Made by a program: the position numbers and the translations under genes. Under the pieces are notes generated by a model that had not been told where the DNA came from, searched no databases, and was given only the letters and a program-made list of their open reading frames with translations. A stretch of 64,000 bases of DNA from contig NZ_CP071868.1 in the NCBI RefSeq assembly GCF_017569225.1, positions 2,418,001 to 2,482,000 of the forward strand. Reading direction: 5' to 3'. This DNA is from Pengzhenrongella sicca. GTDB taxonomy: Bacteria > Actinomycetota > Actinomycetes > Actinomycetales > Cellulomonadaceae. Positions 7,737 through 23,384 of the stretch are shown here, piece by piece; the stretch's first letter is position 1, and each line of letters starts with the position of its first letter.

Positions 7737-8684
7737 TCACATCAGTTCGACGCGGTCGGCCTGGGGTCCTCGATCGCTCTGTCGCACCTGGTACCGGACC
7801 CGATCGCCCTCTCGCAGCGCGTCGGCGCCCCTGATGACCGACACGTGCACGAACAGGTCCGCGCCCGCGGCGTCTGGGGCGATGAAGCCGAAACCCCGCT
7901 CCTCGTCGTAGCGCACGACCACTCCCTCGCCGCCGCGCACCGGGGCGTCGTCGGCCGCCTCGTCGTGTCCCGACCGAGCGCGGGTCGTCGAGGTCGCGGG
8001 CACGCCCCGAGGTGTCGAGCTGCGCGTGAGGGCCACGTCGCGCGCGTGCGGGCCCCTCTCGCTCTCAACGACGTCGTACGTCACCCGGTCCCCCTCCTGC
8101 AGCTCGGTGAGACCGCCGGTCAGCGCTCGGACGTGCACGAAGACATCGGGGCCGCCCGATTCGGGGGCGATGAACCCGAAGCCCTTGTCCCCGTCGTACC
8201 AGGACACGGTGCCGTCGGCCCCGTCGGATGTTCCGGCCTGCTGGGTGGCCTGGGCCCCCAGCGGAAGCAGATGGTCAGCCTGCGGGCCCTTGTCCCCGTC
8301 GGCGACGAGGAATGCCACCCGCTGCCCATCCGCGATCACGCCGCCTCCGACGATGGCCGAGCTGTGCACGAAGATCTCGGCACCACCGCCGTCGGGCGTG
8401 ATGAAGCCGTACCCCTTGGCAGGCTCGTACCAGGCGACGGTGCCGAGCACGCCCAACGGCTGATCGGCGGACTGGTCAGCCGTGACCCGAACGCGGCGTG
8501 CCTGCGGGCCGCGGTCGCCCTCGCCGATCTCGAACTCGACCACCTGGCCCTGCCGGAGCAGCTTCATCGCGTCGTCGCTGACGATCTCGGACGCATGCAC
8601 GTACAGGTCCTCTGCCTCCTGCCCGAGGGCGATGAAGCCGAACCCCCGGTCGGTGTCGAACCAGCGGACGGTTCCCTCGGTCAC
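7737..8684 (-). CDS. Protein with four tandem cold-shock domains
   Basis: A 315-residue protein made of four cold-shock (CSD/OB-fold) domains at about residues 4-67, 80-140, 158-219 and 254-314. Each has the nucleic-acid-binding RNP1 (RGFGFI, KGYGFI, KGFGFI, RGFGFI) and RNP2 (LYVH, IFVH, VFVH, LFVH) motifs and ends with a (D/E)RGP or DKGP turn. Linkers after domains 2 and 3 are longer and polar. Ordinary bacterial Csp proteins have a single domain of about 67 residues that binds single-stranded RNA/DNA. All four sites look intact, so multivalent RNA binding is expected. GTG start at 8684 with AAGGAG six bases upstream. Upstream gene fragments are unrelated. Confidence 0.92.
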   Translation of the reverse strand: MTEGTVRWFDTDRGFGFIALGQEAEDLYVHASEIVSDDAMKLLRQGQVVEFEIGEGDRGPQARRVRVTADQSADQPLGVLGTVAWYEPAKGYGFITPDGGGAEIFVHSSAIVGGGVIADGQRVAFLVADGDKGPQADHLLPLGAQATQQAGTSDGADGTVSWYDGDKGFGFIAPESGGPDVFVHVRALTGGLTELQEGDRVTYDVVESERGPHARDVALTRSSTPRGVPATSTTRARSGHDEAADDAPVRGGEGVVVRYDEERGFGFIAPDAAGADLFVHVSVIRGADALREGDRVRYQVRQSDRGPQADRVELM

Positions 8685-8773
8685 GGCTGACTCCTTGTCA
8701 AAGCTACGGTCGGTGTTCACCCAGTGTCCCCGACTCTGCGACAAGGCCGGCGCCAGGCGATGCTCGCACCGTC

Positions 8774-9000
8774 GTGGACGCGGAAGACGCGCAGTTCGAC
8801 GCCGGCGGCGTACGGCTCGCTCTGTACCCGCTGGGCCAGCTGCGCGATGAGGCCGCGCCCGACAGCGACGGCCGCTGCCGTTGCGGCCGACGCTCGGGTG
8901 GTCGCCGCGCCAGTCGACCGCGAGCGGGGCGGCTACTCGGCCTACGTCGCCGACCCGGAGGGCTGCCGCTGGGAGATCGCCTGGTTGCCCGGCTACCGGC
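8774..9000 (+). pseudogene. Remnant of a VOC (glyoxalase/bleomycin-resistance) protein
   Basis: Two adjacent frames each carry part of one domain. The frame from 8774 reads DAEDAQFDAGGVRLALYPLG, typical of the middle of a VOC domain; the sequence then continues in another frame as RGGYSAYVADPEGCRWEIAW, the classic VOC C-terminal strand with the metal-ligand Glu. A frameshift lies near 8870-8900, and the N-terminal half of the domain is absent because the cold-shock gene's promoter region abuts directly. It is therefore a truncated and frameshifted remnant. A short real protein on this strand is unlikely. Confidence 0.65.
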
Positions 9001-9024
9001 AGCCACATCGCGGTCGTTTAGGGG

Positions 9025-9993: not shown

Positions 9994-10755
9994 CTACGTT
10001 GAGGCTGAGATCACGACAGCGCCTGCCCTCTCCAGGTCGCGTCGCGCCCTGTCTTCTGGCGCCGCGTCGAGGATGATCCCGCTTACCTCGTGCAGCCGTA
10101 GCACTCGGAAGGGCGAGGCTGCGCCGATCTTCTCGCTGCTGCCCAGGACGTAGGTGTCGCCGGCCCGTGCGGCGAGGGCTCGTTTCATTGCGGCCTCGTC
10201 GGGATCACCGGTCGTCAAGCCGGCCTCATGATGGATGCCGGTCACGCCGAGCATGAAGATGTCCGCGTTCACCGCCGACGCCGCCTCGACTGCGGCCGCC
10301 CCGCAGGTCACGAGGGAGTGCTTGAAGAGTCGACCGCCCAACAGCTGCACCTCGACGGTCGGATGGTCCACCAGGGCGACGGCGATCGTGGGGCTGTGCG
10401 TCACAACCGTCGCCACCAGGTCTCGGGGAAGCCTTCGCGCCACGGCGAGGGCCGTCGTGCCGCCGTCGAGGATCACCGTGCAGCCTGGATGCACCAGCCG
10501 GGCCGCCGCGCTAGCGACCCGCTCCTTGCTCTCCACGGCCACCTCACGGCGCCCGGCGTAGTCCGTGACGGCGGGCGAGACAGGCAGCGCTCCGCCGTAG
10601 ACGCGCTGGCAGAGCCCCTCAGCAGCGAGCTCGCGGAGGTCCCGCCGGATGCTGTCCTCGGAGATGCCCAGGTCCGCGGCGGTGGTCTTGGCGACGATGC
10701 GGCCGTCCCGGCGGAGCCGCTCGAGCAGTTCGTCACGTCGTTGGGCAGCAAGCAC
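9994..10755 (-). CDS. DeoR/GlpR-family transcriptional regulator
   Basis: A 253-residue repressor-type protein. An N-terminal winged helix (residues 5-57) contains the DeoR signature region LGISEDSIRRDLRELAAEGL followed by the wing VYGGAL. From residue 75 comes the DeoRC sensor domain, related to sugar isomerases, with ILDGGTTALAVARRL and the NADIFMLGVTGIH strand. DeoR-type proteins usually sense phosphorylated sugars. No sugar genes are adjacent on the same strand; the divergent neighbour is the DUF4406 gene, 53 bases away, whose promoter it may control. Confidence 0.93.
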   Translation of the reverse strand: MLAAQRRDELLERLRRDGRIVAKTTAADLGISEDSIRRDLRELAAEGLCQRVYGGALPVSPAVTDYAGRREVAVESKERVASAAARLVHPGCTVILDGGTTALAVARRLPRDLVATVVTHSPTIAVALVDHPTVEVQLLGGRLFKHSLVTCGAAAVEAASAVNADIFMLGVTGIHHEAGLTTGDPDEAAMKRALAARAGDTYVLGSSEKIGAASPFRVLRLHEVSGIILDAAPEDRARRDLERAGAVVISAST

Positions 10756-11304: not shown

Positions 11305-12168
11305 TCAGCGCCCGGCGAGCATGTACTCGAGAACCTGCGCCACGCCGTCGTCGGCGGCCGCGGGCGCCAGGTGATCCGCCGCTGAGACGGCGTCGGCGTG
11401 CCCGCCCGTCATGGCGAAGCTCGTCCCGGCCCAGCGCAGCATGTCGACGTCGTTCGGCATGTCGCCGAAGCTCACGACCTCGGCCGCGGGGATCCCCCAC
11501 GACTGGGCGAGCTCCGCCAGGCTGGTCGCCTTCGTGACGCCCAACGGCCCCATCTCGAGGATCGCGATGGCGGGGCTCGAGTGCGTCGGCGCGACGAGGT
11601 CGGTCACGTACTCGCGGCCTGCGGCGAGCAGGCCGTCGGGGGTGGACGCCGTGCTGAAGGCCACGAGCTTGATGACGGGCTCGGAGTCGAGCAGCTCCTC
11701 GAGCGTCGCCGCCTCGCGCTGGCTGCCGGCGATCGCCACCGCCGGGGCCAGGCCCTCCACGCGCCCGGACCCGCGCGCGGCCTCGTAGCCGCTCTCGACC
11801 CGAATCTCGTCGGCGGTCTCGACCGCAAACACGACATCCGGCACCGCGGCGCGCAGCCGGCGAGCGACCTCGATAGCCGCCTCGTTCGAGATCGAGCGCA
11901 GGGCGACGACCGAGTCGGCGGCCGAGTCGAGCGTGATCGAGCCGTTCGCGCAGATCGCGAAACCCGTGTGTCCGGTCGCATCGACGACCGGCTGGAGCCA
12001 GCGCGGCGGCCGCCCGGTGACGAAGACGACGCGGACGCCGGCGCGCGCGCACGCCTGCAGGGCAGCCCGGGTGCGCGCCGAGACGGACTGACCGTGCGGG
12101 ACGATCGTGCCGTCGAGATCGGTCGCCACCATGGCGAAGTTGCGGGGCGCCGTGAACGGGTGCTGCAC
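11305..12168 (-). CDS. Cof-type HAD-family sugar phosphatase
   Basis: A 287-residue haloacid-dehalogenase hydrolase of the Cof subfamily (C2-type cap). Motif I is VATDLDGTIV with nucleophile and acid/base Asp at residues 17 and 19; motif II is VVFVTGRPP; the cap spans about residues 85-195; motifs III/IV are VTKATSLAEL and VVSFGDMPNDVDML. Enzymes of this group dephosphorylate sugar phosphates and similar metabolites. The start is unclear: GTG 12168 is preferred, but a TTG at 12228 would reduce the gap to the LsrR-type gene to 27 bases. It probably forms an operon with that regulator and belongs to the same catabolic locus. Confidence 0.85.
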   Translation of the reverse strand: MQHPFTAPRNFAMVATDLDGTIVPHGQSVSARTRAALQACARAGVRVVFVTGRPPRWLQPVVDATGHTGFAICANGSITLDSAADSVVALRSISNEAAIEVARRLRAAVPDVVFAVETADEIRVESGYEAARGSGRVEGLAPAVAIAGSQREAATLEELLDSEPVIKLVAFSTASTPDGLLAAGREYVTDLVAPTHSSPAIAILEMGPLGVTKATSLAELAQSWGIPAAEVVSFGDMPNDVDMLRWAGTSFAMTGGHADAVSAADHLAPAAADDGVAQVLEYMLAGR

Positions 12169-12255
12169 GAAGTGTCGGGTCTCCAGACGTGGCGACGACG
12201 GGGCGCCGCAAAGGGGTGAGTACCCCAAGTATCCCTTGAACCGGCGCGGGGCGAG

Positions 12256-13221
12256 CTAACGGGCGGTGAGCTCGAGCGCGACATCCTCGGTCGTGACGAG
12301 CACGTCGAGATACCCGCCCGCGAGTGCCCCCGCGATCGCATCGAGCTTGTCGATGCCGCCCGCGACCGCGATGACGTTCGGCATCGTCTGCAGGTCGCGG
12401 ATCGGGATGCCGATCCGCAGGCGGTGAAAGTCGGCGTCGACGACCCGCCCATCGCGGTCGTACCACTCCGCGAGGATGTCCCCGACGGCGCCCTGCGTGC
12501 GGTACTCGGCGAGCTGGTGCTCGTTGACGACGCCGTGCTGCAGGATCGTCGCCGACGACAGCGCCGAGCCGATCCCGATGAGGGTCGCATCCGCCTGGGC
12601 CGCGAGCTGGAGCACCGAGGTGACCGCGAGCTCGTCGCGCAAAGCGGCGGCGATGTTCGGCGCCGAGGCGAGCAACGGCGCCGGGAGAAACCGGATGTGC
12701 GTGCCGAGATCATTGTTCGACGAGCCGAGCACCCGCCGCGTGTACGCGTCGATGCCGCCGGCGATCGTCGCGATCGTGACGTCCTTGAGCGAGTCCCGGC
12801 TGAGCGCGAACAGCGCCCGGAGCACGGTGTCGCCCCACCCGATCCCGATGATCGCGCCGGGCCGCAGGTGCCGGCGCAGGTACTGCGCACCCGCCTGGCC
12901 CAGCTGCTCGTTGATCTCCTCGGGCGACCTGTTCACGCCGATCTGGGGAACGACGACGACGTCGGTCAGCCCGTACCGGTCCCGCACGGCGCGGCTCAAC
13001 TCGAGCGCCGTGAGCTCGTCTGCGCTGATCTCGATGCGAACGATGCCGAGGTCCTTCGCCCGCTCGAGCATGCGCGCGACCGTCGCCCGCGACACCGAGA
13101 GCTGCGCCGCAATCTGCGCCTGGGTGAGGTTGTCCTTGTAGTAGAACCACGCGACCCGCACGAGTGTCGCGCGCGAGTCGGACCGCTCGCTGCCCGCCCA
13201 CGACGTTCGGTCAGAGACCAT
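12256..13221 (-). CDS. SorC/LsrR-family transcriptional regulator
   Basis: A 321-residue regulator. An N-terminal helix-turn-helix (about residues 22-60, LTQAQIAAQLSVSRATVARML) is followed by the SorC sugar-binding domain with TDVVVVPQIG, a GIGWGDTVLRALF segment and the closing VIAVAGGIDKLDAIAGAL. LsrR-type proteins repress their operon until a phosphorylated ligand binds. It is divergent from the ABC importer genes, 140 bases apart, so it most likely controls that operon and itself. ATG start at 13221. The HAD phosphatase follows on the same strand and may lower the level of the phospho-inducer. Confidence 0.93.
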   Translation of the reverse strand: MVSDRTSWAGSERSDSRATLVRVAWFYYKDNLTQAQIAAQLSVSRATVARMLERAKDLGIVRIEISADELTALELSRAVRDRYGLTDVVVVPQIGVNRSPEEINEQLGQAGAQYLRRHLRPGAIIGIGWGDTVLRALFALSRDSLKDVTIATIAGGIDAYTRRVLGSSNNDLGTHIRFLPAPLLASAPNIAAALRDELAVTSVLQLAAQADATLIGIGSALSSATILQHGVVNEHQLAEYRTQGAVGDILAEWYDRDGRVVDADFHRLRIGIPIRDLQTMPNVIAVAGGIDKLDAIAGALAGGYLDVLVTTEDVALELTAR

Positions 13222-13270
13222 GCCCAGAACGTAGCACCGGTGAGCATCGGTTCATCTCACGATCATATGG

Positions 13271-13300
13271 TTGACGTCTGCGCAGGCTGCGGTCTACCGT
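13271..13300 (+). promoter_or_regulatory. Predicted promoter of the lsr-like import operon
   Basis: TTGACG (13271-13276) and TACCGT (13295-13300) are 18 bases apart, a good primary-sigma match, 62 bases before the ATPase start. Just upstream, GTGAG and CTCAC at about 13240-13260 form an imperfect inverted repeat that could be an LsrR-type operator; that part is weak. Confidence 0.55.
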
Positions 13301-13361
13301 CCAAATCATCCGAAAGCAGACGAATGACCCGACATCGCTCGGGTGCCGATGAGGCTGGGGC

Positions 13362-14915
13362 GTGGCAATGGAGTCCGTCGCACACGAGCCGACGCAGGCC
13401 GGTGAATCGCCGTCACCGCGCCTCGAGATCCGGACGGTCAGCAAGCGTTTCGACGCCGTCGTCGCGCTTCGCGACGTCTCCTTCACCATCGCCCCCGGGG
13501 AACTGCACGCGCTGATCGGCGAGAACGGCGCCGGCAAGTCCACCCTGGTCGCGATCGTCACCGGGCTCCAGGAGGCCGACTCGGGCGCCGTCCTGCTCGA
13601 CGGCGAGACCGTGCAGTTCCGCGACCCGAAGCAGGCGCGCCGGGCCGGCGTCGCCGCCGTGTACCAGGACCCGAACCTGTTCCCGCACCTGTCCGTCGCG
13701 GAGAACATCTTCGCCGGCGAACACCCCACCCGGCGCGGGCAGGTCGACAAGCGGGCGATGCGCGAGCAGGCGACGTCCCTGCTCGCGCGCCTCGGCTTCG
13801 ACATCGACGTCGACCAGGCGGTCGCCGGTCTGACCGTCGCCGAGGCGCAGTTCGTCGAGATCGCGCGCGCGATCTCGACCGACCTCAAGATCCTCATCCT
13901 GGACGAGCCGACGTCGGCGCTCACCCCCGGCGAGGCCGTCAGGCTGTACGACGTCGTCGCGCGCCTCAAGGCCGAGGGCACCAGCATCATCTGGATCTCG
14001 CACCGGATGGAGGAGATCCGCCACCTCGCCGACACGATCACCGTGCTGCGCGACGGCCAGCACGTGCGCACCGCGTCCGCCGACGACCTCGACGACGACG
14101 CGATGATCCGCCTCATGGTCGGCCGGTCGGTGGTGCTGACCCCGGTCCCCCGCCAGACCCCGCTCGGGCCTGTGCGCCTGAGCGTGCGCAACCTGTCTCT
14201 CGACGGAGTGTTCGACGACGTGAGCTTCGACGTCCACGCCGGGGAGATCGTCGGCGTAGCAGGGCTCGTGGGGTCCGGCCGCACCGAGATCGCGCGCGCC
14301 ATCTTCGGCGCCGATCCCGCCGGCTCCGGGGAGATCGTCGTTGACGGCACGCCGGTGCGGGCCCTCAGCCCGCGGCAGATGGCGCGGCGCGGCGTCGTCT
14401 ACCTTCCCGAAGACCGCGACGCCGAGGGCGTCATCTCGACCATCTCAGTGGCGCGGAACATCGCCCTGCCGAGCACCGCCGCGCTGTCGACGTTCGGCCT
14501 CATGCACCCGAGCCGCGAGCGCCGGATCGCTCGCGAGCAGAAGGCGGCGCTGAGCATCAAAGCCGAGATCGACCACCCCGTGAGCTCCCTGTCCGGCGGC
14601 AACCGGCAGAAGGTCGCGCTCGCGCGCTGGCTAGCAACCAAACCGGCCGTGCTGCTGCTCGACGAGCCGACGCACGGCATCGACGTGGGCACCAAGGCGC
14701 AGGTGCACGACATCATGCGGGACCTCGCACGCGAGCAGGGCCTCGCCATCCTGATGATCTCGTCGGACCTGCCCGAGGTGGTCGCCGTGAGCGACCGGGT
14801 GCTCGTCATGGCCCGCGGGCTGCTCGTCGCCGACCTCGACATCGTCGACGCGACCCAGGAGGCGATCATCGCCGCGGCGACCCGCAGCGCAAGCCTGACG
14901 GGCGACGTCGCATGA
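13362..14915 (+). CDS. Sugar ABC transporter ATPase with two ABC domains (RbsA/LsrA type)
   Basis: A 517-residue fused ATPase. The first ABC domain (about 25-255) has Walker A GENGAGKST, signature TVAEAQFVEIARA and Walker B ILILDEPT. The second (about 270-510) has the degenerate P-loop GLVGSGRTE, an intact signature SLSGGNRQKVALA and Walker B VLLLDEPTHG. This asymmetric layout is standard for carbohydrate uptake transporters of class 2 (RbsA, MglA, LsrA). GTG 13362 or ATG 13368 starts the protein. It is the first gene of a six-gene operon and overlaps the next gene by ATGA. Confidence 0.95.
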   Translation: MAMESVAHEPTQAGESPSPRLEIRTVSKRFDAVVALRDVSFTIAPGELHALIGENGAGKSTLVAIVTGLQEADSGAVLLDGETVQFRDPKQARRAGVAAVYQDPNLFPHLSVAENIFAGEHPTRRGQVDKRAMREQATSLLARLGFDIDVDQAVAGLTVAEAQFVEIARAISTDLKILILDEPTSALTPGEAVRLYDVVARLKAEGTSIIWISHRMEEIRHLADTITVLRDGQHVRTASADDLDDDAMIRLMVGRSVVLTPVPRQTPLGPVRLSVRNLSLDGVFDDVSFDVHAGEIVGVAGLVGSGRTEIARAIFGADPAGSGEIVVDGTPVRALSPRQMARRGVVYLPEDRDAEGVISTISVARNIALPSTAALSTFGLMHPSRERRIAREQKAALSIKAEIDHPVSSLSGGNRQKVALARWLATKPAVLLLDEPTHGIDVGTKAQVHDIMRDLAREQGLAILMISSDLPEVVAVSDRVLVMARGLLVADLDIVDATQEAIIAAATRSASLTGDVA

Positions 14916-15907
14916 GCCGCACCGGGTCGATCGCCCTGAGGGTGCGCTTCCTCGGCGTCGTCGTCTTCCTGCTGCTGCTCGTCGCCGCGTTCGCCCTGGT
15001 GTCGCCGCAGTTCCTCACCGTGAGCAACGGGCGCACGATCCTGTTCACCGCGGCGATCCTCGTGGTCGCCGTCGCCGGCCAGACCATCGTGGTCCTGACC
15101 GGGAACCTCGACCTCTCGGTCGGGTCGATCATGGGCTTCACCGCCTACGTCGTGTACGACGTCAGCTCCGGTAGCCCGGGCCTGCAGGCCGCCGTCGTGC
15201 CCCTCGCGCTCGTCGTCGGCGCGGTGCTCGGCTGGCTCAACGGCTTCCTGGTGGCCGTGCTCGAGATCCCGTCCATCGTCGCGACCCTCGGCACCCTCGC
15301 GGTGTACCGCGGCGCGACCGCCGTCTACGCCGACTCCGGGCAGGTCACCTCCGGCATGATCCCCGGCTGGGTGAAGTCCGTCTCCACCGGAACCGTCGCC
15401 GGGATCCCGTACTACGTGCTCATCGCGGCCGCGGTGGTGGCCCTCGTCGGCTGGGTGCTCAGCAGCCTGCCGTGGGGGCGCCGCATCTACGCCTACGGCT
15501 CCAACCCGCGGGCGGCGCGGTTCTTCGGCCTCGACCCGACCCGGATCGTCATCGGCGCGTACGTCGCCGCCGGGATGATCGCGGCGCTCGCCGGGCTGAT
15601 GCTCGGCGGGCAGGTCGGCGTCATCGGCTCGCTCCTGGCCAACGGGTACGAGATCCAGGTCCTCGCGGCGGCCGTCATCGGCGGGGTGAGCATCTGGGGA
15701 GGCAGCGGGAGCGTCGTCGGCGCGGCGCTCGGCGCCGTGGTGCTCGCGACCATCAACAACGGACTGGTGCAGCAGCAGGTGCAGGAGTACTACCGCCTGC
15801 TCATCCAGGGCGTGACGATCATCCTCGCCGTCGGAGTCGACGCCGTCGTGCAGCGCCGCGTGACGGGCATCAACCGACGCCGCCGCATCATGGAGGTCGC
15901 GAAGTGA
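14912..15907 (+). CDS. Sugar ABC transporter permease (RbsC/LsrC type)
   Basis: A 331-residue inner-membrane permease of the branched-chain/ribose family (BPD_transp_2) with about nine helices. Typical stretches include QTIVVLTGNLDLSVGSIMG after helix 2, the EIPSIVATLGTLAVYRG segment and YGSNPRAARFFGLDP in the cytoplasmic coupling loop, followed by AAVIGGVSIWGGSGSVVGA. The start overlaps the ATPase stop (ATGA), and the stop overlaps the next permease start (GTGA), so the three transport genes are translationally coupled. Confidence 0.94.
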   Translation: MSRTGSIALRVRFLGVVVFLLLLVAAFALVSPQFLTVSNGRTILFTAAILVVAVAGQTIVVLTGNLDLSVGSIMGFTAYVVYDVSSGSPGLQAAVVPLALVVGAVLGWLNGFLVAVLEIPSIVATLGTLAVYRGATAVYADSGQVTSGMIPGWVKSVSTGTVAGIPYYVLIAAAVVALVGWVLSSLPWGRRIYAYGSNPRAARFFGLDPTRIVIGAYVAAGMIAALAGLMLGGQVGVIGSLLANGYEIQVLAAAVIGGVSIWGGSGSVVGAALGAVVLATINNGLVQQQVQEYYRLLIQGVTIILAVGVDAVVQRRVTGINRRRRIMEVAK

Positions 15908-16929
15908 GCCTCGTCCGCCTCGCGCGCCAATACTCCTGGGAGCTGCTCCTGGTCGTCCTGATCCTGGCGGCCGGAGCCTGGGCGACCACCCTGTCTCCCT
16001 TCTACCTCGAGGCCGCTCAGATCCTCGGGTCCGCGCAGTACTTCGCGATCTTCGGCATCCTCGCCTTCGGCCTCATGACGGTCGTGATCCAGGGGGAGAT
16101 CGACATCTCCCTGGCGTCCACGCTCGCCGTCGGCTCCGTCACCTTCGCCCAGCTCGCGACCAACGGGTTCCCCGTGGTCGTCGCGACGGTGATCGTGCTC
16201 GCCCTCTGCGCGACCCTCGGCGCGATCAACGGGGTGCTCGTCGCGTACGCCAACCTGCCGTCGCTCGCGGTCACGCTCGGCACCCTCGGCGCGTACCGCG
16301 GGCTCGCCTACATCATCGGCGGTGAGGCCGGCTTCACCGGACTGCCAGAGTCCTACACCTACCTCGGCAGCCACCTCCTCGGGATCGTGCCCGCGTCGTT
16401 GTTGGTGTTCCTGCTCCTGGCGGCCGCCACCGCCGTCCTGATGGCGGCGACCCCGTTCGGCCGCTACAGCTACGCCATCGGCAACAGCTCCCCCGCGAGC
16501 GCGATGGCCGGGGTGCCGGTCAAGCGGGTCCGCGTCGGCGCGTACGTCGTCGCGGCCCTGACTGCGGGCATCGGCTCGCTGCTGTGGATCGGGCAGTACT
16601 TCTCGGCCCGGGCCGACAACGCCGACGGCTCGATCCTGTTCATCCTCACCGCCGTCGTGCTCGGCGGTGTGTCGATCAAGGGCGGCAAGGGCACGGTCGT
16701 CGGGGTCCTGCTCGCGGTCCTGCTGCTCGGCGTCCTGTCCAACGGCATGGGCCTGGCGAACTTCCCCGGCTCCAGCCAGACCCTGATTCTCGGCGCGCTC
16801 CTGATCGTCAGCATCGGCCTGCCCAACGGCGTCGTGAGGCTGCGCTCGTCGCTCTCGCGCCGGCAGCGCGCCGCCACGGCGGCACGGCTGGTGACTGACG
16901 ACGACGCCCGCGCCCGCTCGCCCGGCTGA
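15904..16929 (+). CDS. Sugar ABC transporter permease (RbsC/LsrD type)
   Basis: A 341-residue permease paralogous to the preceding gene, as in LsrC/LsrD. Family hallmarks are TVVIQGEIDISLASTLAVGS, NLPSLAVTLGTLGAYRGLAY, YAIGNSSPASAMAGVPVKRV in the coupling loop and TAVVLGGVSIKGGKGTVVG. GTG start at 15904. The last 25 residues are a hydrophilic cytoplasmic tail. A heterodimeric pair of permeases rather than a single RbsC gene is what makes the operon lsr- or rha-like rather than rbs-like. Confidence 0.94.
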   Translation: MSLVRLARQYSWELLLVVLILAAGAWATTLSPFYLEAAQILGSAQYFAIFGILAFGLMTVVIQGEIDISLASTLAVGSVTFAQLATNGFPVVVATVIVLALCATLGAINGVLVAYANLPSLAVTLGTLGAYRGLAYIIGGEAGFTGLPESYTYLGSHLLGIVPASLLVFLLLAAATAVLMAATPFGRYSYAIGNSSPASAMAGVPVKRVRVGAYVVAALTAGIGSLLWIGQYFSARADNADGSILFILTAVVLGGVSIKGGKGTVVGVLLAVLLLGVLSNGMGLANFPGSSQTLILGALLIVSIGLPNGVVRLRSSLSRRQRAATAARLVTDDDARARSPG

Positions 16930-17018
16930 GCCGGCACCACGGCACTGCCCGACCCACCCCGCGCACCGCTGCACCTCCACCACCCACCTAGCACCAACTC
17001 GAAGAAGAGGATCTCCCG

Positions 17019-18071
17019 ATGTCCATTCGCAACCGACGCAGGAGTCGCACGATTCTGGCCGCCTTCGCTGGCGCCGCGGTGCTCGCCGTCAGCGCGTGCA
17101 GCGGCTCGAGTGACGAGCCGGCGGCCGGCAACGAGACGTCCGCAGCCGCCGCCGACGTCAGCATCTTCATGGCCCCCAAGTTCACGGGCCTGGCCTACTT
17201 CGAGGTCGCGCGCGCCGGCGGCGAGCGGGCCGGCGAGGAGCTCGGGATCGACTTCCAGTACGTGGGCTCGGACGAGCCGGACGCGACGGCGCAGGTCCAG
17301 ACCCTCGAGAACTCGATCACGCAGAAGCCGTCCGCGCTCGTGGTGAGCGCGATCGACGGCGGCGCCGTGTCTCCGTCGCTCAAGAAGGCGATGGACGCCG
17401 GCATCGTCGTCGTGACCTACGACGCCGACGCCGAAGTCGACGCCCGCGACATCTTCGTCAACCAGCTCAGCTACGAGTTGGCGGCGAGCACGATGCTCGA
17501 CGCCGCCCTGCTCAACGACCCCGAGGGCGGCAAGATCGCGTTCGTGTCGGCCTCCCCGACGGCGCCGAACCACACCGCGCACGTCAAGATCATGAAGGAG
17601 CTGATCGACACCGACCCGGCGTACTCCGCGCTCAGCTACATCGACACCGTGCAGTTCGCCGGGGACGACGAGCAGAAGAGCTTCGACATCGCGGTGAACC
17701 TCATGCAGGACCCCGACCTGAAGTTCATCATCTCGTCGTCGGCCGCCACCGTGCCGGCCGCCGCACAGGCCGTCGTCGCCCAGGGCCGGCAGGGCGAGGT
17801 CTACGCGACCGGCTTCGCGCTGCCGAGCTCGATGAAGGAATTCGTCGCGGACGGCTCCGTCAAGGCGTTCGCCCTGTGGGACCCGGCCGAGCTCGGCTAC
17901 GTCGCCACGATGGCCGCGAACCAGCTGGTGACTGGCGAGATCACGAGCGAGGAGGGTCAGGTCGTCAAGGCCGGCGACGCGGGCGACTTCACCGTCGGCG
18001 CCGACGGCGAGCTGCTGTACGACAAGCCGCTCGTCTTCACCGCAGAGAACATCGACGAGTACGACTTCTGA
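17019..18071 (+). CDS. LsrB/RhaS-like sugar-binding lipoprotein
   Basis: A 350-residue periplasmic-binding-protein-I lipoprotein. The signal peptide ends with a lipobox and Cys at about residue 27. The mature start DVSIFMAPKFTGLAYFEVA matches LsrB/RhaS (PK at 53-54), as do the YVGSDEPDATAQVQTLENSI segment, VVTYDADAEV (D135, D137) and KAFALWDPAELGYVATM. From memory of Salmonella LsrB, its AI-2 contacts include a Lys, an Asp, an Asp-Gln pair and a Pro; the Lys and first Asp are present here, but the Asp-Gln position reads PTAPNHTAH and the Pro is replaced, so AI-2 is doubtful as ligand. Strong spacing behind the permease: 89 bases, with AAGAAGAGGATCTCCCG before the ATG. Confidence 0.92.
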   Translation: MSIRNRRRSRTILAAFAGAAVLAVSACSGSSDEPAAGNETSAAAADVSIFMAPKFTGLAYFEVARAGGERAGEELGIDFQYVGSDEPDATAQVQTLENSITQKPSALVVSAIDGGAVSPSLKKAMDAGIVVVTYDADAEVDARDIFVNQLSYELAASTMLDAALLNDPEGGKIAFVSASPTAPNHTAHVKIMKELIDTDPAYSALSYIDTVQFAGDDEQKSFDIAVNLMQDPDLKFIISSSAATVPAAAQAVVAQGRQGEVYATGFALPSSMKEFVADGSVKAFALWDPAELGYVATMAANQLVTGEITSEEGQVVKAGDAGDFTVGADGELLYDKPLVFTAENIDEYDF

Positions 18072-18073
18072 TC

Positions 18074-18868
18074 GTGTCTGGGTCCTCGCTCCGCCTGCGC
18101 CGGCTCTTCGACGCGACCTCGCACCGCTCGTTCATGGTCGCGTTCGACCGCACGCTCGCGGGCGGACCCGAGCCGTACGCGGTCGACTCGGCCGCGACGG
18201 TCACCGCCATCGCCGCGGCCGGCGCCGACGCGATCCTGCTCAGCCCCGGACTGATCAAGCAGCACGGGCACCTGCTCGCCTACCGCGGCGGCCCCGCGAT
18301 CGTGTGCCGAGTGGACTTCCCGTTCATCGCCGGCTTCGCGCGGGGCCGCGGGGAGGAGTTCCGCGTGATCGCCCGTGCCGAGGAGGCCGTCGCGCTCGGT
18401 GCGGACGCGTTGGTCATGTTCCTCATCCTCGGCCACGAGGAGCAGCGCACGTGGGGGACGAACGTCGAGGCCGTCGCGCGGACGGCCGAGGCCGCGCGGC
18501 GCGTGGGGGTTCCGCTCATCGTGGAGGCGGTGCCGTGGGGGTCGCAGGCGCCCGATCCACGCGACCCGCAGCTCGTCGCGACTGCGGTGCGCATCGCGGC
18601 CGAGCTTGGCGCCGACGCCGTGAAGACGGAGTACGTCGGCGACCTGGCGAGCATGCGCGACGTCGTCGCCGGGTGCCCGGTGCCCGTCCTCGTCCTGGGC
18701 GGGCCCACGGTCGACGACGTCGGCGCCCTCGTCGGGTTCACGGCGGACGCGTTGGCGGCGGGAGCGCGCGGCGTCATCTACGGCCGCAACGTCTGGCAAC
18801 GCACAGACAGCGCGCTGGTCAGCGCTCGGCTACGCGCGGTGGTGCACGGGGGCGCGGATGCCACGTGA
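18074..18868 (+). CDS. Class I (DhnA/LsrF-type) aldolase
   Basis: A 264-residue TIM-barrel aldolase of the DhnA/FbaB/LsrF family. The Schiff-base Lys is K184 in GADAVKTEYVGD; an acid/base His sits in KQHGHLLAY; the phosphate-binding end of the barrel reads VLVLGGPTV and GARGVIYGRNVWQ. LsrF thiolyses phospho-AI-2 (P-HPD), whereas other members cleave ketose phosphates. GTG start at 18074, two bases after the binding-protein stop. The stop lies inside the next gene (11-base overlap), so transport, cleavage and phosphorylation are encoded as one unit. Confidence 0.9.
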   Translation: MSGSSLRLRRLFDATSHRSFMVAFDRTLAGGPEPYAVDSAATVTAIAAAGADAILLSPGLIKQHGHLLAYRGGPAIVCRVDFPFIAGFARGRGEEFRVIARAEEAVALGADALVMFLILGHEEQRTWGTNVEAVARTAEAARRVGVPLIVEAVPWGSQAPDPRDPQLVATAVRIAAELGADAVKTEYVGDLASMRDVVAGCPVPVLVLGGPTVDDVGALVGFTADALAAGARGVIYGRNVWQRTDSALVSARLRAVVHGGADAT

Positions 18869-20384
18869 CGTCGTCGTCGGCCTGGACTCTGGCGGGTCGT
18901 TCGTCAAGGCGTCGTTGTTCGACGTGACCTCCGGGCAGTCGATCAGTCGGGGGCGCCCGGTCCCGGTGCAGCACGCCGCGCCGGGGCACAACGAGCGCGA
19001 CCCGCTGCTGATGTGGCAGGAGCTGGCCGCCGCCACGCGCGAGGCGATCGACGCGCTGCCGGGACGGGGAGACAGGATCGCCGCGGTGGGGGTGACCGGG
19101 CACGGCAACGGCCTGTACCTGGTCGACGCGGCCGGCCGGCCGACCCGGGACGCCGTCCTGTCCTCGGACGTGCGCGCGACGTCGATCGTCCGGGGGTGGA
19201 AGGCCGCCGGAAAGCACGAGCGGCTCTTCGCGACGACCCGCAACGGGCTTTGGCCGGGCCAGCCGGCCGCGATCCTCGCGTGGCTCCAGGAGCACGAGGC
19301 CGGGGCGCTCGACGGCTCGGACGCCGCGCTCATGTGCAAGGACTTCCTGCGCGTCCAGCTGACCGGCGTCGTGGGCACGGAGCTGACGGACCAGAGCTGC
19401 AACGGGCTGCTCGACAACCTCAGCCTCGACTACTCCGCCGATGTGCTCTCCGAGCTCGGCCTCGAACGTCAGCGCCGCCTGCTCAAGCCTGCGAGCCTGC
19501 CCGAGGACGTCGTCGGCAACGTGACACGCGCGGCCGCCGAGGTCACGGGAATCCCGGCGGGGACGCCGGTGATCGCCGGCCTCGTGGACAACGTCGCGCT
19601 GCACCTCGGCTCGGGCATCCTCGACGGGTCGAAGATGTGCGTCGCCGCAGGCACCTGGAGCGTCAACCAGCTGCTCGTCCCCCGCGAGGCGCTGCAGCCC
19701 GGCGGCGTCGTCGAGAGCATCGCCCCGTTCGCGGCCTGCCTGTCGATCGGCCTGCACCGGGCGCTGATGATCGAGGCCAGCCCGACGTCGGCGAGCTCGT
19801 TGTCGTGGGCCGTCGACCACGGACTGACCGGCCTGCGCGCGCAGGCGCGCCAGGCGCATCGCGACGTGTACGAGTCGAGCCTCGACCGGATCACGTCGGT
19901 GCGCCTGCGGCCCGACGACCCCATGTTTCTCCCGTTTCTCGACGGCAGCCGGGACGAGCCCGGGGCCAGGGCGGCGTGGATCGGCGTCGCGTCGTGGAAC
20001 GACGAGAACAACCTGTTGCACGCGATCGCCGAGGGTGTGTGCATGGAGCACCACCGGCACCTAGACCGGCTCGCGGCGAGCGGAGGCAGCGACACCCCGG
20101 TCAGCCTCTCGGGCGGCGCGGCACAGAGCAGCGCGTGGGCGCAGATGTTTGCCGACGTGCTCGGGCGCAGGGTCGAGGTGCCGTTGGGCGAGCAGCTAGG
20201 TGCCCTGGGCGCGTCGGTCGTGGCCGGGCTCGGGGCGGGCCTGTTCGACAGCCTCGACTCGGGCCTGAAGCACCTCATGCCGCCGATGCGCGTGTACGAG
20301 CCGCGACCGGCGGCGTCCGAGCACTACGCCGCGCGGTACTCGCGGTACCAGCAGGCGGTGGAGGTGCTCGGTTCGTGGACGTAG
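18858..20384 (+). CDS. FGGY-family carbohydrate kinase (L-xylulose-kinase-like)
   Basis: A 508-residue two-domain FGGY kinase. The N-terminal ATPase signature is VVGLDSGGSFVKASLFD; the substrate region reads VGVTGHGNGLYLVDAAG with SSDVRA close by, which is the pattern of L-xylulose kinase (LyxK/YiaP), not of LsrK. The C-terminal domain has AAGTWSVNQ, the adenosine motif VSLSGGAAQSSAWAQMFADVLG and EQLGALGASVVAG. It would phosphorylate the imported sugar before aldol cleavage. ATG 18858 overlaps the aldolase gene. It ends the operon; no clear hairpin terminator follows. Confidence 0.92.
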   Translation: MPRDVVVGLDSGGSFVKASLFDVTSGQSISRGRPVPVQHAAPGHNERDPLLMWQELAAATREAIDALPGRGDRIAAVGVTGHGNGLYLVDAAGRPTRDAVLSSDVRATSIVRGWKAAGKHERLFATTRNGLWPGQPAAILAWLQEHEAGALDGSDAALMCKDFLRVQLTGVVGTELTDQSCNGLLDNLSLDYSADVLSELGLERQRRLLKPASLPEDVVGNVTRAAAEVTGIPAGTPVIAGLVDNVALHLGSGILDGSKMCVAAGTWSVNQLLVPREALQPGGVVESIAPFAACLSIGLHRALMIEASPTSASSLSWAVDHGLTGLRAQARQAHRDVYESSLDRITSVRLRPDDPMFLPFLDGSRDEPGARAAWIGVASWNDENNLLHAIAEGVCMEHHRHLDRLAASGGSDTPVSLSGGAAQSSAWAQMFADVLGRRVEVPLGEQLGALGASVVAGLGAGLFDSLDSGLKHLMPPMRVYEPRPAASEHYAARYSRYQQAVEVLGSWT

Positions 20385-20417: not shown

Positions 20418-21116
20418 TCACAGCAGCAGGATCGCGGTCACGATCGAGCCGAGCGCCGCGAGCGGGATCGCGACGACCGTGCCCACGAGCGCGGCGATCG
20501 TGATCCGCAGGTCGTCGCGCAGGTAGGGGGCGTTGACCGGACCGCCGGCGGCGAGCAGCCCCGCGCGCTGCGCCGCCTCGATGCGGGGGAAGAACCGGGC
20601 GGTGCGCAGGCTGTTCTCCGCCATGGCCGCGGTCAGCACGTCCATCTCGTCCCGCAGCGGGTCCCACCGCGGGTCGGGTTGGGAGGTCCCGCGCGGATCG
20701 CCCGTCGACCCACTGGCGATGACGACGACGCCGTCGGTGCCGGTGCCGGGGCCGGCGCGACCGGGGCCGCGGGAGGCGCCGGATGCACCAGATGCACCAG
20801 ATGCACCAGATGCACCAGATGCACCAGATGCACCAGATGCACCAGAGATGGTGCGGTGCGCCGCGAGCTCCGCCGTGCGCGCCTGCAACCGCTCGCGCCG
20901 AACGGCGAGCAAGACGACCGGGACGGCGAGCAGGGCCGCCAGGGCCAGCGGGATCCACGAGCTCGCGCCGTCACCCGCCCGGACGTAGCCGGCGCCGAGC
21001 AGCGCGAGCAGCGCGATCGACGCGCCCGCCAGCCGCAAGAGCACCCCGCCCGGGCGCCGCGCAAGCTGGACGAGGGACGGGATCACCTGGTTGAGCACAT
21101 CGCCGGTCGCGGTCAT
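20418..21116 (-). CDS. Membrane protein with internal Gly-Ala-Ser repeat
   Basis: A 232-residue protein with two N-terminal membrane segments (about residues 34-52 and 58-75) and a C-terminal one (about 208-230) that ends the protein. Between them a low-complexity (GAS)n linker of eight units (about residues 93-117) leads to a soluble helical part (DEMDVLTAAMAENSLRTARFF). The linker is encoded by a perfect nine-base tandem repeat. I recognise no family. The ATG at 21116 was chosen over an upstream start at 21152. It converges on the kinase gene. Confidence 0.7.
   Translation of the reverse strand: MTATGDVLNQVIPSLVQLARRPGGVLLRLAGASIALLALLGAGYVRAGDGASSWIPLALAALLAVPVVLLAVRRERLQARTAELAAHRTISGASGASGASGASGASGASGASGASRGPGRAGPGTGTDGVVVIASGSTGDPRGTSQPDPRWDPLRDEMDVLTAAMAENSLRTARFFPRIEAAQRAGLLAAGGPVNAPYLRDDLRITIAALVGTVVAIPLAALGSIVTAILLL
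20782..20844 (+). repeat. Nine-base tandem repeat (GATGCACCA x7)
   Basis: Seven perfect head-to-tail copies of GATGCACCA, in frame with the membrane-protein gene on the opposite strand, where each unit reads Gly-Ala-Ser. Unit length is a multiple of three, so slippage would change linker length without breaking the gene. Confidence 0.95.
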
Positions 21117-21188
21117 GCGAACCAGGTTCGCACCCCCGCGGCGTGCCGGCACGCCCCGCTCGCTACGGGCGAACGCGAGACGCCGGGC

Positions 21189-23384
21189 TCAGGACCGCAG
21201 GCCGACCGTGTGCAGCAGTCCCGCGACGACGGACGCCCAGCCGGTCCCGGTGCCGATCCGGGTCGGCGACGGCCGGTCCGTCGTGGTGCCGTCGCCGAGC
21301 TGGCCGGAGCCGTTGGCACCCCACGCCCACAGGCTGCCGTCGGACCGCAACGCCGCCGTGTGCCAGTGGCTCGAGGCGACGGAGGACCAGCCGGCGTCGG
21401 TGCCGATCCGGGTCGGCGTCAGCCGGTCCGTCGTGGTGCCGTCGCCGAGCTGCCCGTAGGCGTTGAAGCCCCACGCCCACAGCGTGCCGTCCGACCGCAC
21501 GGCCGCGGTGTGCCCGTTGCCCGCCACCGCCGCGGCCCAATCGGTCGCCGAGCCCACCTGCCCTGGCGTGAGCCGCGGGGACTCGCCCGAGGTGGTGCCG
21601 TCGCCGAGCTCGCCGTAGTCGTTGCTCCCCCACGTCCAGAGCGTCCCGTCGGTCGTCACGGCGACCGTGTGGCCCGGCCCTGTCGCGACGGACTTCCAGT
21701 TCGCGGCGGTGCCGACCTGGACCGGCGCCGCCTGCGGATCGAACGAGCCGAGGCCGAGCTGCCCGGTGCCGTTGTAGCCCCAGGCCCACAGCGTGCCGTC
21801 GGACTTGATCGCGAGGGAGTGGTAGAACCCGGCCGCCACCGAGACCCACCGCGTGTCGGTCCCGACCTGCCGCGGCGCCGTGCGGGAGACGCCGGTCGTC
21901 GACCCGTCGCCGAGCTGGCCGAGGTCGTCCAGGCCCCAGGACCACAGGGTGCCACCGGTCGTGATCGCGAGCGTGTGCCCGTACCCGGCCGCCGCCGTGG
22001 CCCAGTTTGTCGCCGTGCCGACCCGCACCGGCGCTCGCCGCGCCGTGAGCGTCCCGTCGCCGAGCTGGCCGTCGTTGTTGTAGCCCCACGCCCACAGCGA
22101 CCCGTCGGCGCGGACCGCGACGGTGTGGTTGGCGCCCGCAGCCACCGACGTCCACCGCTGGGTCGAGCCGACCTGGACGGGGGCGGGGCGATCGGTCAGC
22201 GTCCCGTCGCCGACGGCGCCGAAGCCGTTCGCGCCCCACGAGAACGCCTGCAGGCCGGCGACGGGCGCGGGCTGCACGGTCACGGTCGCGGCGCCGGCGA
22301 TCGCCGCGCTCGCCACGTCCGCGGCCGTGAGCTGCTGCGCGCCTGCCGTCGCCAGCACCGCGCCCGAGCCGGCCGGGACCGTGTAGGTTCCGGCGTCGCT
22401 CGCGTCGAACCGGTGCTGCGCGGGCGTGATGACGGCCGCCCTGTCCGTGCTGGCGAAAGCGACCGTGCCGCGGTAGGACGTCGCGGGGTTGTCCCAGGTG
22501 TCGAGCGCCCCGACCGAGAACGCGAACCGGGCGCCGGCGACTGCGGTCGCCGGGGCGGACACCGTGAGCTTGGCCGCGGCACCGGCGCTCACCGTGATCG
22601 GCGCGGTCCGACCGGCGATGGAGGAGACGCCGGCGTCGGTCGCCGTCACGGTGCGCACCCCCGCGGCGTGCAGCACCACGCCGGTGAACACGTGCATGCC
22701 CCGGTCGGCCGCCGTGAACCGGTAGGTCGCGGGCAGCACCGGGTTGCGCGGGTCCGTGCTGGTGAACGCGACCGCCCCCCGGTAGCCGCTGATCACGTTG
22801 TAGTAGGCGTCTTTGGCCATCACCGTGAGCGAGGTCGCGACCCCCGCCGTCGCGGTCGGCGCGGTCGTGACGGCCAGGCGCGTCGTCGGGCCAGGGGCGA
22901 GCGTGATCGGCCGGGACGTGCCCGTGATCGACGCCGACCGGCCGTCCTTCGCGGTCACGGTCCGGGCCCCCGCGGTGCGCAGCGACACCCCGGTGAACGT
23001 GTGGGACCCCTTGTCCGCCGCCGTGAACGTGTACGCGAGCGGGAGCACCGGCGTGCGGTGATCGTCGCTGCTGAACACGACGGTGCCCCGGTAGGCGCCG
23101 GTGATCGCGCCGGCAGCGTCCTTCGCCGTGACCGACAGCGCGAAGGGGGCACCGGCAGTCGCCGTCGGCGGGGCGGTCACGACCAGGCGAACCGTCGGCG
23201 CCGCGCCCGCGGGCGCCGCCGCCGCGGGCAACGCCGCCGCGGGCGCCGCCGCCGCCGGCAACGCCGCCGCGGGCGCGAGGACAGCAAGGCCCGCGACGAC
23301 GAGCACAGAGGCGATCCGGCGGAGCGCCCCTCGAAGCGAGCACGCCGCAGTCTCGACGTGAATAACCATGGCGTGGCCCTTCAT
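21189..23384 (-). CDS. Secreted RCC1-repeat beta-propeller protein with Ig-like repeats
   Basis: A 731-residue exported protein. The N-terminus carries a signal peptide (hydrophobic ASVLVVAGLAVLA) followed by an Ala/Pro-rich segment. Residues about 65-365 hold three Ig-like/filamin-type repeats, each starting (R/K)L.V(T/S)AP.TA.AG. and ending with a Thr-rich strand. Residues about 375-731 hold seven RCC1 repeats (for example GSLWAWGYNNDGQLGDGT, with LWAWG.N..GQLGDG recurring), which should close a seven-bladed propeller. There is no sortase motif or membrane anchor. RCC1-type bacterial proteins are thought to mediate adhesion or protein contacts; nothing shows a catalytic role. ATG 23384 or ATG 23369 may be the start. 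Confidence 0.9.
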   Translation of the reverse strand: MKGHAMVIHVETAACSLRGALRRIASVLVVAGLAVLAPAAALPAAAAPAAALPAAAAPAGAAPTVRLVVTAPPTATAGAPFALSVTAKDAAGAITGAYRGTVVFSSDDHRTPVLPLAYTFTAADKGSHTFTGVSLRTAGARTVTAKDGRSASITGTSRPITLAPGPTTRLAVTTAPTATAGVATSLTVMAKDAYYNVISGYRGAVAFTSTDPRNPVLPATYRFTAADRGMHVFTGVVLHAAGVRTVTATDAGVSSIAGRTAPITVSAGAAAKLTVSAPATAVAGARFAFSVGALDTWDNPATSYRGTVAFASTDRAAVITPAQHRFDASDAGTYTVPAGSGAVLATAGAQQLTAADVASAAIAGAATVTVQPAPVAGLQAFSWGANGFGAVGDGTLTDRPAPVQVGSTQRWTSVAAGANHTVAVRADGSLWAWGYNNDGQLGDGTLTARRAPVRVGTATNWATAAAGYGHTLAITTGGTLWSWGLDDLGQLGDGSTTGVSRTAPRQVGTDTRWVSVAAGFYHSLAIKSDGTLWAWGYNGTGQLGLGSFDPQAAPVQVGTAANWKSVATGPGHTVAVTTDGTLWTWGSNDYGELGDGTTSGESPRLTPGQVGSATDWAAAVAGNGHTAAVRSDGTLWAWGFNAYGQLGDGTTTDRLTPTRIGTDAGWSSVASSHWHTAALRSDGSLWAWGANGSGQLGDGTTTDRPSPTRIGTGTGWASVVAGLLHTVGLRS

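Follow-up and report, generated by a model that had tools for sequence, protein, structure and literature searches.

The present study deals with a stretch of 64,000 nucleotides of Pengzhenrongella sicca (contig NZ_CP071868.1, positions 2,418,001 to 2,482,000), referred to as the window, whose host genome comprises 4.40 Mb on one contig. Between positions 12256 and 20384 of the window a minus-strand repressor gene faces six plus-strand genes (13362–20384) which encode an importer of the ATP-binding cassette (ABC) type, an aldolase and an FGGY kinase. Several adjoining genes share a few bases with each other, as genes of an operon do. The original prediction, made from the letters of the DNA, had described an Lsr-like gene content (LsrR-type regulator, LsrACDB-like importer, aldolase, FGGY kinase) which might serve a substrate other than autoinducer-2 (AI-2), and all of these genes were found where it had placed them. 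The locus is composed as follows:

11305–12228, minus strand: Cof-type HAD-IIB phosphatase (TIGR00099 118 bits, cut-off 137; PF08282 156 bits), a neighbour and probably not a member of the system
12256–13221, minus strand: SorC-family repressor, LsrR-like, 321 amino acids (NCBIfam LsrR 220 bits, cut-off 486; DeoR of Bacillus 196 bits)
13241–13265, plus strand: probable operator, consisting of the imperfect palindrome TGAGCATCGGTTCA, 5 bp and CGATCA as degenerate direct repeat
13362–14915, plus strand: sugar ABC transporter ATPase, 517 amino acids, with two PF00005 stretches (NCBIfam AraG best with 507 bits, LsrA 418 bits)
14912–15907, plus strand: LsrC-like permease (top NCBIfam match LsrC, 172 bits, cut-off 388)
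15904–16929, plus strand: LsrD-like permease with a GTG start at 15904 (top NCBIfam match LsrD, 145 bits, cut-off 500)
17019–18071, plus strand: binding protein of the RhaS/LsrB family (NCBIfam RhaS 246 bits, cut-off 342; LsrB 177 bits, cut-off 384)
18074–18868, plus strand: class I aldolase of the DeoC/LacD family with a GTG start, containing Asp25-Arg26, Glu151, Lys184, Gly209-Gly210 and Gly237-Arg238
18858–20384, plus strand: FGGY kinase of the LyxK branch, 508 amino acids, as judged from identity to E. coli kinases and from FastTree grouping; its gene overlaps the aldolase stop

The arrangement strongly resembles that of the lsr locus of E. coli, where lsrK-lsrR faces lsrACDBFG. The window has the same R/ACDBF order and orientation, and thus the lsrR/lsrACDB order with a SorC-type repressor by which Lsr loci are recognised, with the kinase gene being placed last. 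Both systems share a SorC-type repressor, a sugar-type ABC importer, an aldolase of the DeoC/LacD fold and an FGGY kinase, the identity of the operon proteins to those of E. coli Lsr ranging from 26% (LsrF, LsrK) to 38% (LsrA). Yet, the two systems differ in the pocket of the binding protein (KDNHSA compared to KDDQPA at the contact positions described below), in the branch to which the kinase belongs and in the aldolase, which lacks Asp251 of LsrF and has Arg beside the base. The top NCBIfam match of the aldolase is ADH synthase (PRK07226) and that of the kinase is XylB. As none of the top NCBIfam matches of the operon proteins attains its curated cut-off, the operon is not lsr by orthology. 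In agreement with the remark that an LsrG-like monooxygenase is lacking, no LsrG-like ABM domain was detected among the 14 distinct proteins of the window (E ≤ 0.001), to which this search was confined.

The full operon is present in six distinct genomes, namely that of the window, G1081 (locus L109), Cellulomonas carbonis (L042), an Actinomycetales metagenome-assembled genome (MAG; L040), Actinomyces glycerinitolerans (L041) and a Micrococcales MAG (L039). In each of L039, L040, L041, L042 and L109 all seven genes were found by tblastn. Duplicates were counted once, with G1106 corresponding to the L042 genome (identical LuxS coordinates), G1146 to the L040 genome and L122 to the window; C. 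carbonis is thus a member of the same family as the window's organism. Within the family, the binding protein and the aldolase (E ≤ 1e-60) occur in the same four of 221 genomes, while the four further genomes of the genus to which the window belongs all lack the operon. In a sample of 396 genomes of the order an aldolase of more than 42% identity is found only in the genome of the window. These genome searches score the best candidates of a first look only, so that the carrier counts may miss some. In G1081 the operon is followed by open reading frames (ORFs) which, by eye, are transposase-like and integrase-like. This is a rare accessory operon. No description of it was found in the literature searched, and Cellulomonas is not named among the matches listed for LuxS/LsrB literature.

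A conspicuous difference from known importers is observed at the ligand contacts of the binding protein. Six contact positions of LsrB were taken from the available part of PMC6166536 (K35, D116, D166, Q167, P220 and A222), which cites D166 and A222 as required. In the alignment the LsrB proteins of E. coli and S. meliloti read KDDQPA at these positions and all 18 RhaS-type proteins compared (two Protein Data Bank (PDB) chains and the loci L124–L139, i.e. the 16 best among the 39 further genomes of the family in which a RhaS-type protein was matched) read KDNQPT. The window protein reads KDNHSA (Lys54, Asp135, Asn184, His185, Ser240 and Ala242). Hence, Lys35, Asp116 and Ala222 of LsrB are kept, while Asp166-Gln167 is replaced by Asn-His and Pro220 by Ser. 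This bears out what had been stated on the AI-2 contacts, namely that the Lys and the first Asp are kept and the Asp-Gln pair and the Pro are not; the retained Ala222 had not been mentioned. The orthologues in L039, L040, L042 and L123 (G1081) likewise read KDNHSA and that in L041 KDNHSV, so that all six distinct operon genomes share KDNHS-A/V (L120, L121 and L122, duplicates of L042, L040 and the window, are not counted). The nearest kin are RhaS-type proteins (TIGR02637, whose cut-off the protein does not attain; PDB entries 4kvf and 5bq3), with which Lys, Asp and Asn are common at three pocket positions; at the other three the operon carriers have His-Ser-Ala in place of Gln-Pro-Thr, with Val for Ala in L041, and the partner enzymes differ as well. 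In a phmmer search of the PDB the best matches are 4kvf (200 bits) and 5bq3 (197 bits), followed by S. meliloti LsrB with 148 bits. A profile of the binding protein searched against the 221 family genomes retrieves four genomes at 652 to 694 bits, the next one reaching 287 bits. The pocket signature together with this score gap argues for a discrete subgroup rather than random drift, and KDNHS-A/V marks a third signature inside the RhaS/LsrB family. A second, better LsrB encoded in the genome of the window was considered as well and rejected after comparison of the eight best of 27 Peripla_BP_4 matches with LsrB and RhaS.

A related actinobacterial case is the lsrB operon of A. odontolyticus XH001, which, as far as the available part of PMC6166536 describes it, also encodes, next to an importer and in a strain carrying luxS, an LsrB-like protein which lacks Asp166. 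Its order is lsrB-rbsA-rbsC-rbsC-dak1, the last gene encoding a dihydroxyacetone kinase, and that part of the paper describes neither an aldolase nor an FGGY kinase.

The aldolase shows the features of the class I DeoC/LacD enzymes, i.e. the fold, the Schiff-base Lys and the phosphate-binding Gly/Arg loops, as far as these are recognisable from its sequence; the catalytic Lys and Asp as well as the phosphate-binding Gly/Arg positions are retained. It had been called LsrF-like, a loose term which is not supported if taken strictly: the enzyme matches the MJ0400 ADH synthase with 153 bits compared to 67 bits for LsrF. The nearest solved structure is that of MJ0400, which contains bound dihydroxyacetone phosphate (DHAP), and the clade of the enzyme in the phylogeny which had been proposed as a check (FastTree, 53 rows, without support values) is nearer to MJ0400 than to LsrF. 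For LsrF, which is a thiolase acting on 3-hydroxy-2,4-pentanedione 5-phosphate (P-HPD), the part of PMC2728841 at hand names Lys203, Asp57, His58 and Asp251. The window enzyme keeps the Lys and Asp57, while His58 is replaced by Arg26 and Asp251 by Ile235, and its NCBIfam LsrF score amounts to 99 bits compared to a cut-off of 297. With respect to both MJ0400 and the class I fructose bisphosphate aldolase of T. tenax the catalytic Tyr is exchanged for Val153 and the His following the base for Arg26, while Glu151 is present. An Asp-Arg pair, where most relatives have Asp-His, unites a clade of six of the 53 rows, some of which are near-identical, and this pair marks the enzyme which matches the KDNHS-A/V importer. 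The clade extends to L043, a MAG labelled as alphaproteobacterial, where a different ABC transporter is seen by eye. More distant aldolases (41–49% identity) occur in Rubrobacter and in Gleimia/Actinomyces urinae, in clusters with FGGY kinases and dehydrogenases (by annotation or by eye), and at several Rubrobacter loci the aldolase has a 2-hydroxyacid dehydrogenase and also a LyxK-branch kinase as neighbours. On the Rubrobacter plasmids L067 and L068 a related aldolase is located among genes for FGGY kinases, a transketolase, a protein of the dihydroxyacetone kinase family, RpiB, a G1P-dehydrogenase-like protein and HAD proteins.

A Shinella sp. H4-D48 plasmid (L101, 1283–11221) encodes a protein sharing 68.5% identity with LsrF of E. 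coli, which adjoins a protein annotated as short-chain dehydrogenase/reductase, a sugar ABC importer, a LyxK-branch FGGY kinase and a GlpD-like oxidase. The binding protein of this importer does not match LsrB at E 1e-5. Apparently, a close relative of LsrF is used here outside AI-2 metabolism.

Among eight E. coli FGGY kinases the window kinase is most similar to LyxK, with 32.9% identity, followed by XylB (28.4%), LsrK (26.5%), FucK (22.4%), GlpK (21.4%) and RhaB (21.3%). In the FastTree tree, the grouping of which was read without support values, it falls into the LyxK branch together with other actinobacterial and alphaproteobacterial kinases. Identity and the proposed phylogeny thus both agree with the earlier remark that the enzyme looks like an L-xylulose kinase and not like LsrK. 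Ten residues are named as the putative LsrK pocket for 4,5-dihydroxy-2,3-pentanedione (DPD) in the accessible portion of PMC8016206. A single one of them, the catalytic Asp253, is kept; five of the nine others equal LyxK, with which the window kinase shares the pocket residues Gly, Gly, Trp, Val and Ala. The LsrK score of 133 bits lies far below the cut-off of 528. Since curated LyxK is confined to a few groups of Gammaproteobacteria, according to the section of the FGGY survey PMC3245297 which was available, "L-xylulose kinase" is a lead for the window enzyme and not an assignment.

The repressor is 35% identical to E. coli LsrR. Among PDB entries it matches LsrR with 175 bits, B. subtilis DeoR with 131 bits and SorC with 116 bits; its sugar-binding domain (PF04198) scores 203 bits, and both this domain and the operator layout are those of the SorC/DeoR subfamily. 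Upstream of the ATPase gene the relatives contain the palindrome TGAGCANNTGCTCA, which in L039, L040, L042 and L109 is followed by N5 and TGAGCR. It is exact in L039 and L109 and, twice, in L041, while one mismatch is present in L040 and L042 and two are present in the window (position 13241). The DeoR operator likewise combines a palindrome with a direct repeat, as stated in the available part of PMC11229326. Within the 64 kb of the window four sites with up to two mismatches are present where 0.6 are expected from single-base shuffles, and 53 sites with up to three mismatches where 16.3 are expected. The window site is therefore regarded as a probable operator on account of its position and of the relatives, rather than of the window alone. 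In the six operon genomes six exact copies of the operator were counted, which are distributed over three genomes; four are located at operons (two of these in L041) and two are lone, while a reversed control pattern gave zero matches in the same genomes. A further copy with one mismatch is located inside the kinase gene of L109. Shared regulation of the operon and luxS was also considered but gained no support, as neither an exact nor a one-mismatch copy of the operator is present around luxS in the genome of the window, in G1081 or in G1106.

The observed gene content and order, the conservation of the operator, the co-occurrence of the genes and pocket signatures distinct from those of Lsr and RhaS describe a variant which is assembled from known parts; this is what is new here. 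We consider it rather probable that the operon imports, phosphorylates and aldol-cleaves a small ketose, probably a pentulose, whereby we infer which sugar is used, at which position it is phosphorylated, what is formed from it and what acts as inducer. The RhaS/LsrB-family importer would bring in the ketose, and the LyxK-branch kinase would, most likely, phosphorylate the terminal hydroxyl beside the keto carbon to yield a ketose 1-phosphate. The aldolase would then form a Schiff base via Lys184 and cleave the C3–C4 bond to give DHAP and a short aldehyde, which would be glycolaldehyde in the case of a pentulose, for example L-xylulose or L-ribulose. Release of the LsrR-like repressor from the palindromic operator upstream of the ATPase gene would be brought about by the phosphorylated sugar. 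The sequence of import, phosphorylation and aldol cleavage which the original prediction had put forward thus persists as the best reading, with the binding protein, the kinase and the aldolase differing from their Lsr counterparts at the positions compared, in a pattern which is common to the six distinct genomes.

Support for a sugar comes from the neighbourhood of the operon in A. glycerinitolerans (L041), where the binding-protein gene is succeeded, after about 0.45 kb and on the same strand, by araD and araA (159–2528). The former is 36% identical to E. coli AraD and the latter 49% identical to E. coli AraA. In the 45 kb around this operon arabinofuranosidase-type genes and further sugar importers are seen by eye, and tblastn with 13 FGGY queries revealed no FGGY kinase in these 45 kb besides the operon's own. 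These neighbours tie the operon to pentose metabolism in one genome and favour a sugar. A large ORF near this operon (15979–17943 of L041), beside a transporter which we take to be a CUT1-type importer, may encode a glycosidase of the GH127 type, which it resembles by eye. A comparable chemistry is suggested by five LyxK-branch kinases (Parasedimentitalea, Shinella, Agrobacterium and Rubrobacter plasmids) which adjoin GlpD-like oxidases, three of the five also being accompanied by an aldolase. GlpD-type enzymes oxidise the carbon adjoining the phosphorylated one, as is established for glycerol 3-phosphate. Hence, the plasmid clusters can be read as leading from a polyol via the polyol phosphate and the ketose 1-phosphate to DHAP and an aldehyde. 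Since the window operon contains neither an oxidase nor an isomerase, its substrate may, by analogy, already carry the ketone. An aldolase beside FGGY kinases with other neighbours is also found in L043, L044, L046 and L048, in whose genomes LuxS was not found.

Several observations weigh against import and cleavage of a ketose as outlined. E. coli LyxK yields a 5-phosphate and has epimerases rather than an aldolase as partners, according to the accessible portion of PMC3245297, the window kinase being only 33% identical to it, and the substrate of AraD, whose gene adjoins the operon in Actinomyces, is a 5-phosphate as well. From such a compound, cleavage would yield dihydroxyacetone together with glycolaldehyde phosphate and no DHAP, so that phosphorylation at O1 is an assumption. 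Furthermore, of the genomes examined a single one has araD-araA beside the operon, while luxS is present in five of six operon genomes and adjacent to the operon, together with mtnN, in one of them. As for the operator, a search limited to exact copies found none in the window's genome, G1106 and G1146. Finally, 33 LsrB-type proteins and two proteins of S. coelicolor, with sites which are only partly conserved, are reported to bind AI-2 in the available part of PMC12268683, which makes the loss of the Asp-Gln and Pro contacts weaker evidence than had been assumed.

This last report also speaks for an alternative which we consider unlikely, namely a divergent AI-2 system in which AI-2 made by LuxS is re-imported via the remodelled pocket, phosphorylated by the LyxK-type kinase and then, with no LsrG taking part, cleaved to DHAP. 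In the genome of the window LuxS is encoded at 1010870–1011304 with mtnN adjoining, and it is missing only from MAG L039 among the six operon genomes, compared to a presence in 61 of 150 family genomes. LuxS was not found in the L043, L044, L046 and L048 genomes, where the related aldolase has other neighbours; of these, L043 and L044 are MAGs. In L040, mtnN and luxS (12908–14046, minus strand) lie on the strand opposite to the operon, 1.6 to 2.7 kb past the end of the kinase gene (11309), with luxS itself at a distance of 2.3 to 2.7 kb. A gene order equal to lsrACDBF, a repressor nearest to LsrR among solved structures and a binding protein which is the sole LsrB-like one among the eight best Peripla_BP_4 loci, and the only match to its profile at E ≤ 1e-30 in the genome, also fit an AI-2 system. 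Against this, Asp166, required according to the passages of PMC6166536 at hand, is Asn in the window protein, with Gln167 and Pro220 changed as well; nine of the ten putative substrate residues of LsrK differ, the proton-donor candidate Asp251 of LsrF is not retained and no LsrG-like gene was found nearby. In the Lsr pathway phospho-AI-2 must be isomerised before the LsrF chemistry, as the available part of PMC8016206 states. The distribution of luxS is, moreover, patchy by genus, with two of five genomes being positive in the window's genus and the other three carriers belonging to two genera with at least ten and at least seven positives. The association with LuxS (four of four family carriers compared to 61 of 150) is thus weak and suggestive only. 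In the genome of the window 1.4 Mb separate luxS and the operon, in G1081, G1106 and L041 the two reside on different contigs, no LuxS was found in MAG L039 and the Actinomyces copy of the operon adjoins araD-araA. The luxS and mtnN genes of L040 overlap by a few bases.

Quite unlikely, in our estimation, is the import of an aldose or polyol which an enzyme encoded outside the operon, such as AraA in Actinomyces, converts by isomerisation or oxidation before it enters the same kinase and aldolase steps. It would account for araA adjoining the operon in L041, for the dehydrogenases of several kinds which accompany distant relatives of the kinase and aldolase (L046, L048, L067, L070 and L071) and for a homologue of 2-hydroxyacid dehydrogenases which in L040 is encoded some 6 kb downstream. 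However, the gene labels used revealed neither an isomerase nor a sugar dehydrogenase next to the operon in the window, L040, L042 and L109, the search being restricted to these surroundings.

It is improbable that AI-2 recycling has evolved in actinobacteria in parallel to Lsr. Such a system would combine a RhaS-derived receptor with the Asn-His-Ser signature, a LyxK-derived AI-2 kinase and an MJ0400-type aldolase cleaving phospho-AI-2 to DHAP without LsrG, mainly in LuxS-positive strains and once beside luxS-mtnN.

A system for rhamnose or another 6-deoxyhexose, in favour of which RhaS is the best family match and 4kvf and 5bq3, named rhamnose-binding by their depositors, are the best PDB matches, is highly improbable and was rejected on the basis of pocket and partner enzymes: three of the six pocket positions are occupied otherwise than in any of the 18 RhaS-type proteins, the carriers are set apart in the family search by the gap from 652 to 287 bits, the operon contains no rhamnose isomerase, RhaD or mutarotase, and the kinase is only 21% identical to RhaB. 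An Agrobacterium match to LsrB was discarded as a rhamnose locus in PMC2561040, as far as the available part of that paper goes.

By their best family matches, genes of this kind would be labelled as rhamnose or AI-2 transport, whereas the KDNHS-A/V pocket and the Asp-Arg aldolase clade allow their recognition in other genomes. With a ketose as substrate, the operon would convert a pentulose, rare or derived from plants, to DHAP in a few steps; with AI-2 as substrate, it would represent an Lsr system peculiar to actinobacteria.

The Cof-type phosphatase gene had been noted beside the regulator, where it is indeed located in the window. Its membership in the system was rejected, since it does not directly adjoin the operon in any relative with readable flanks (the L039 contig stops at the operon), and it is probably not part of the system. 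No Cof homologue was detected by tblastn at the L040, L041 and L042 loci, the latter having an ORF which is HAD-like by eye about 7 kb downstream of the operon, while in L109 a homologue of 32% identity is located about 2.6 kb upstream of the ATPase gene.

Further genes flank this region in the window. On the minus strand, 9994–10755 encodes a sugar-type regulator of the DeoR/GlpR family, and an ORF at 7737–9008 comprises four tandem cold-shock domain stretches. Beyond the kinase gene, a minus-strand ORF at 20418–21152 without Pfam match contains about seven perfect copies of the 9-mer GATGCACCA at 20782–20846, which give rise to a Gly-Ala-Ser repeat. It is followed by a gene on the same strand (21189–23384) for an RCC1-repeat protein of 731 amino acids with seven RCC1 stretches, which is partly encoded by tandem DNA repeats of 150 bp.

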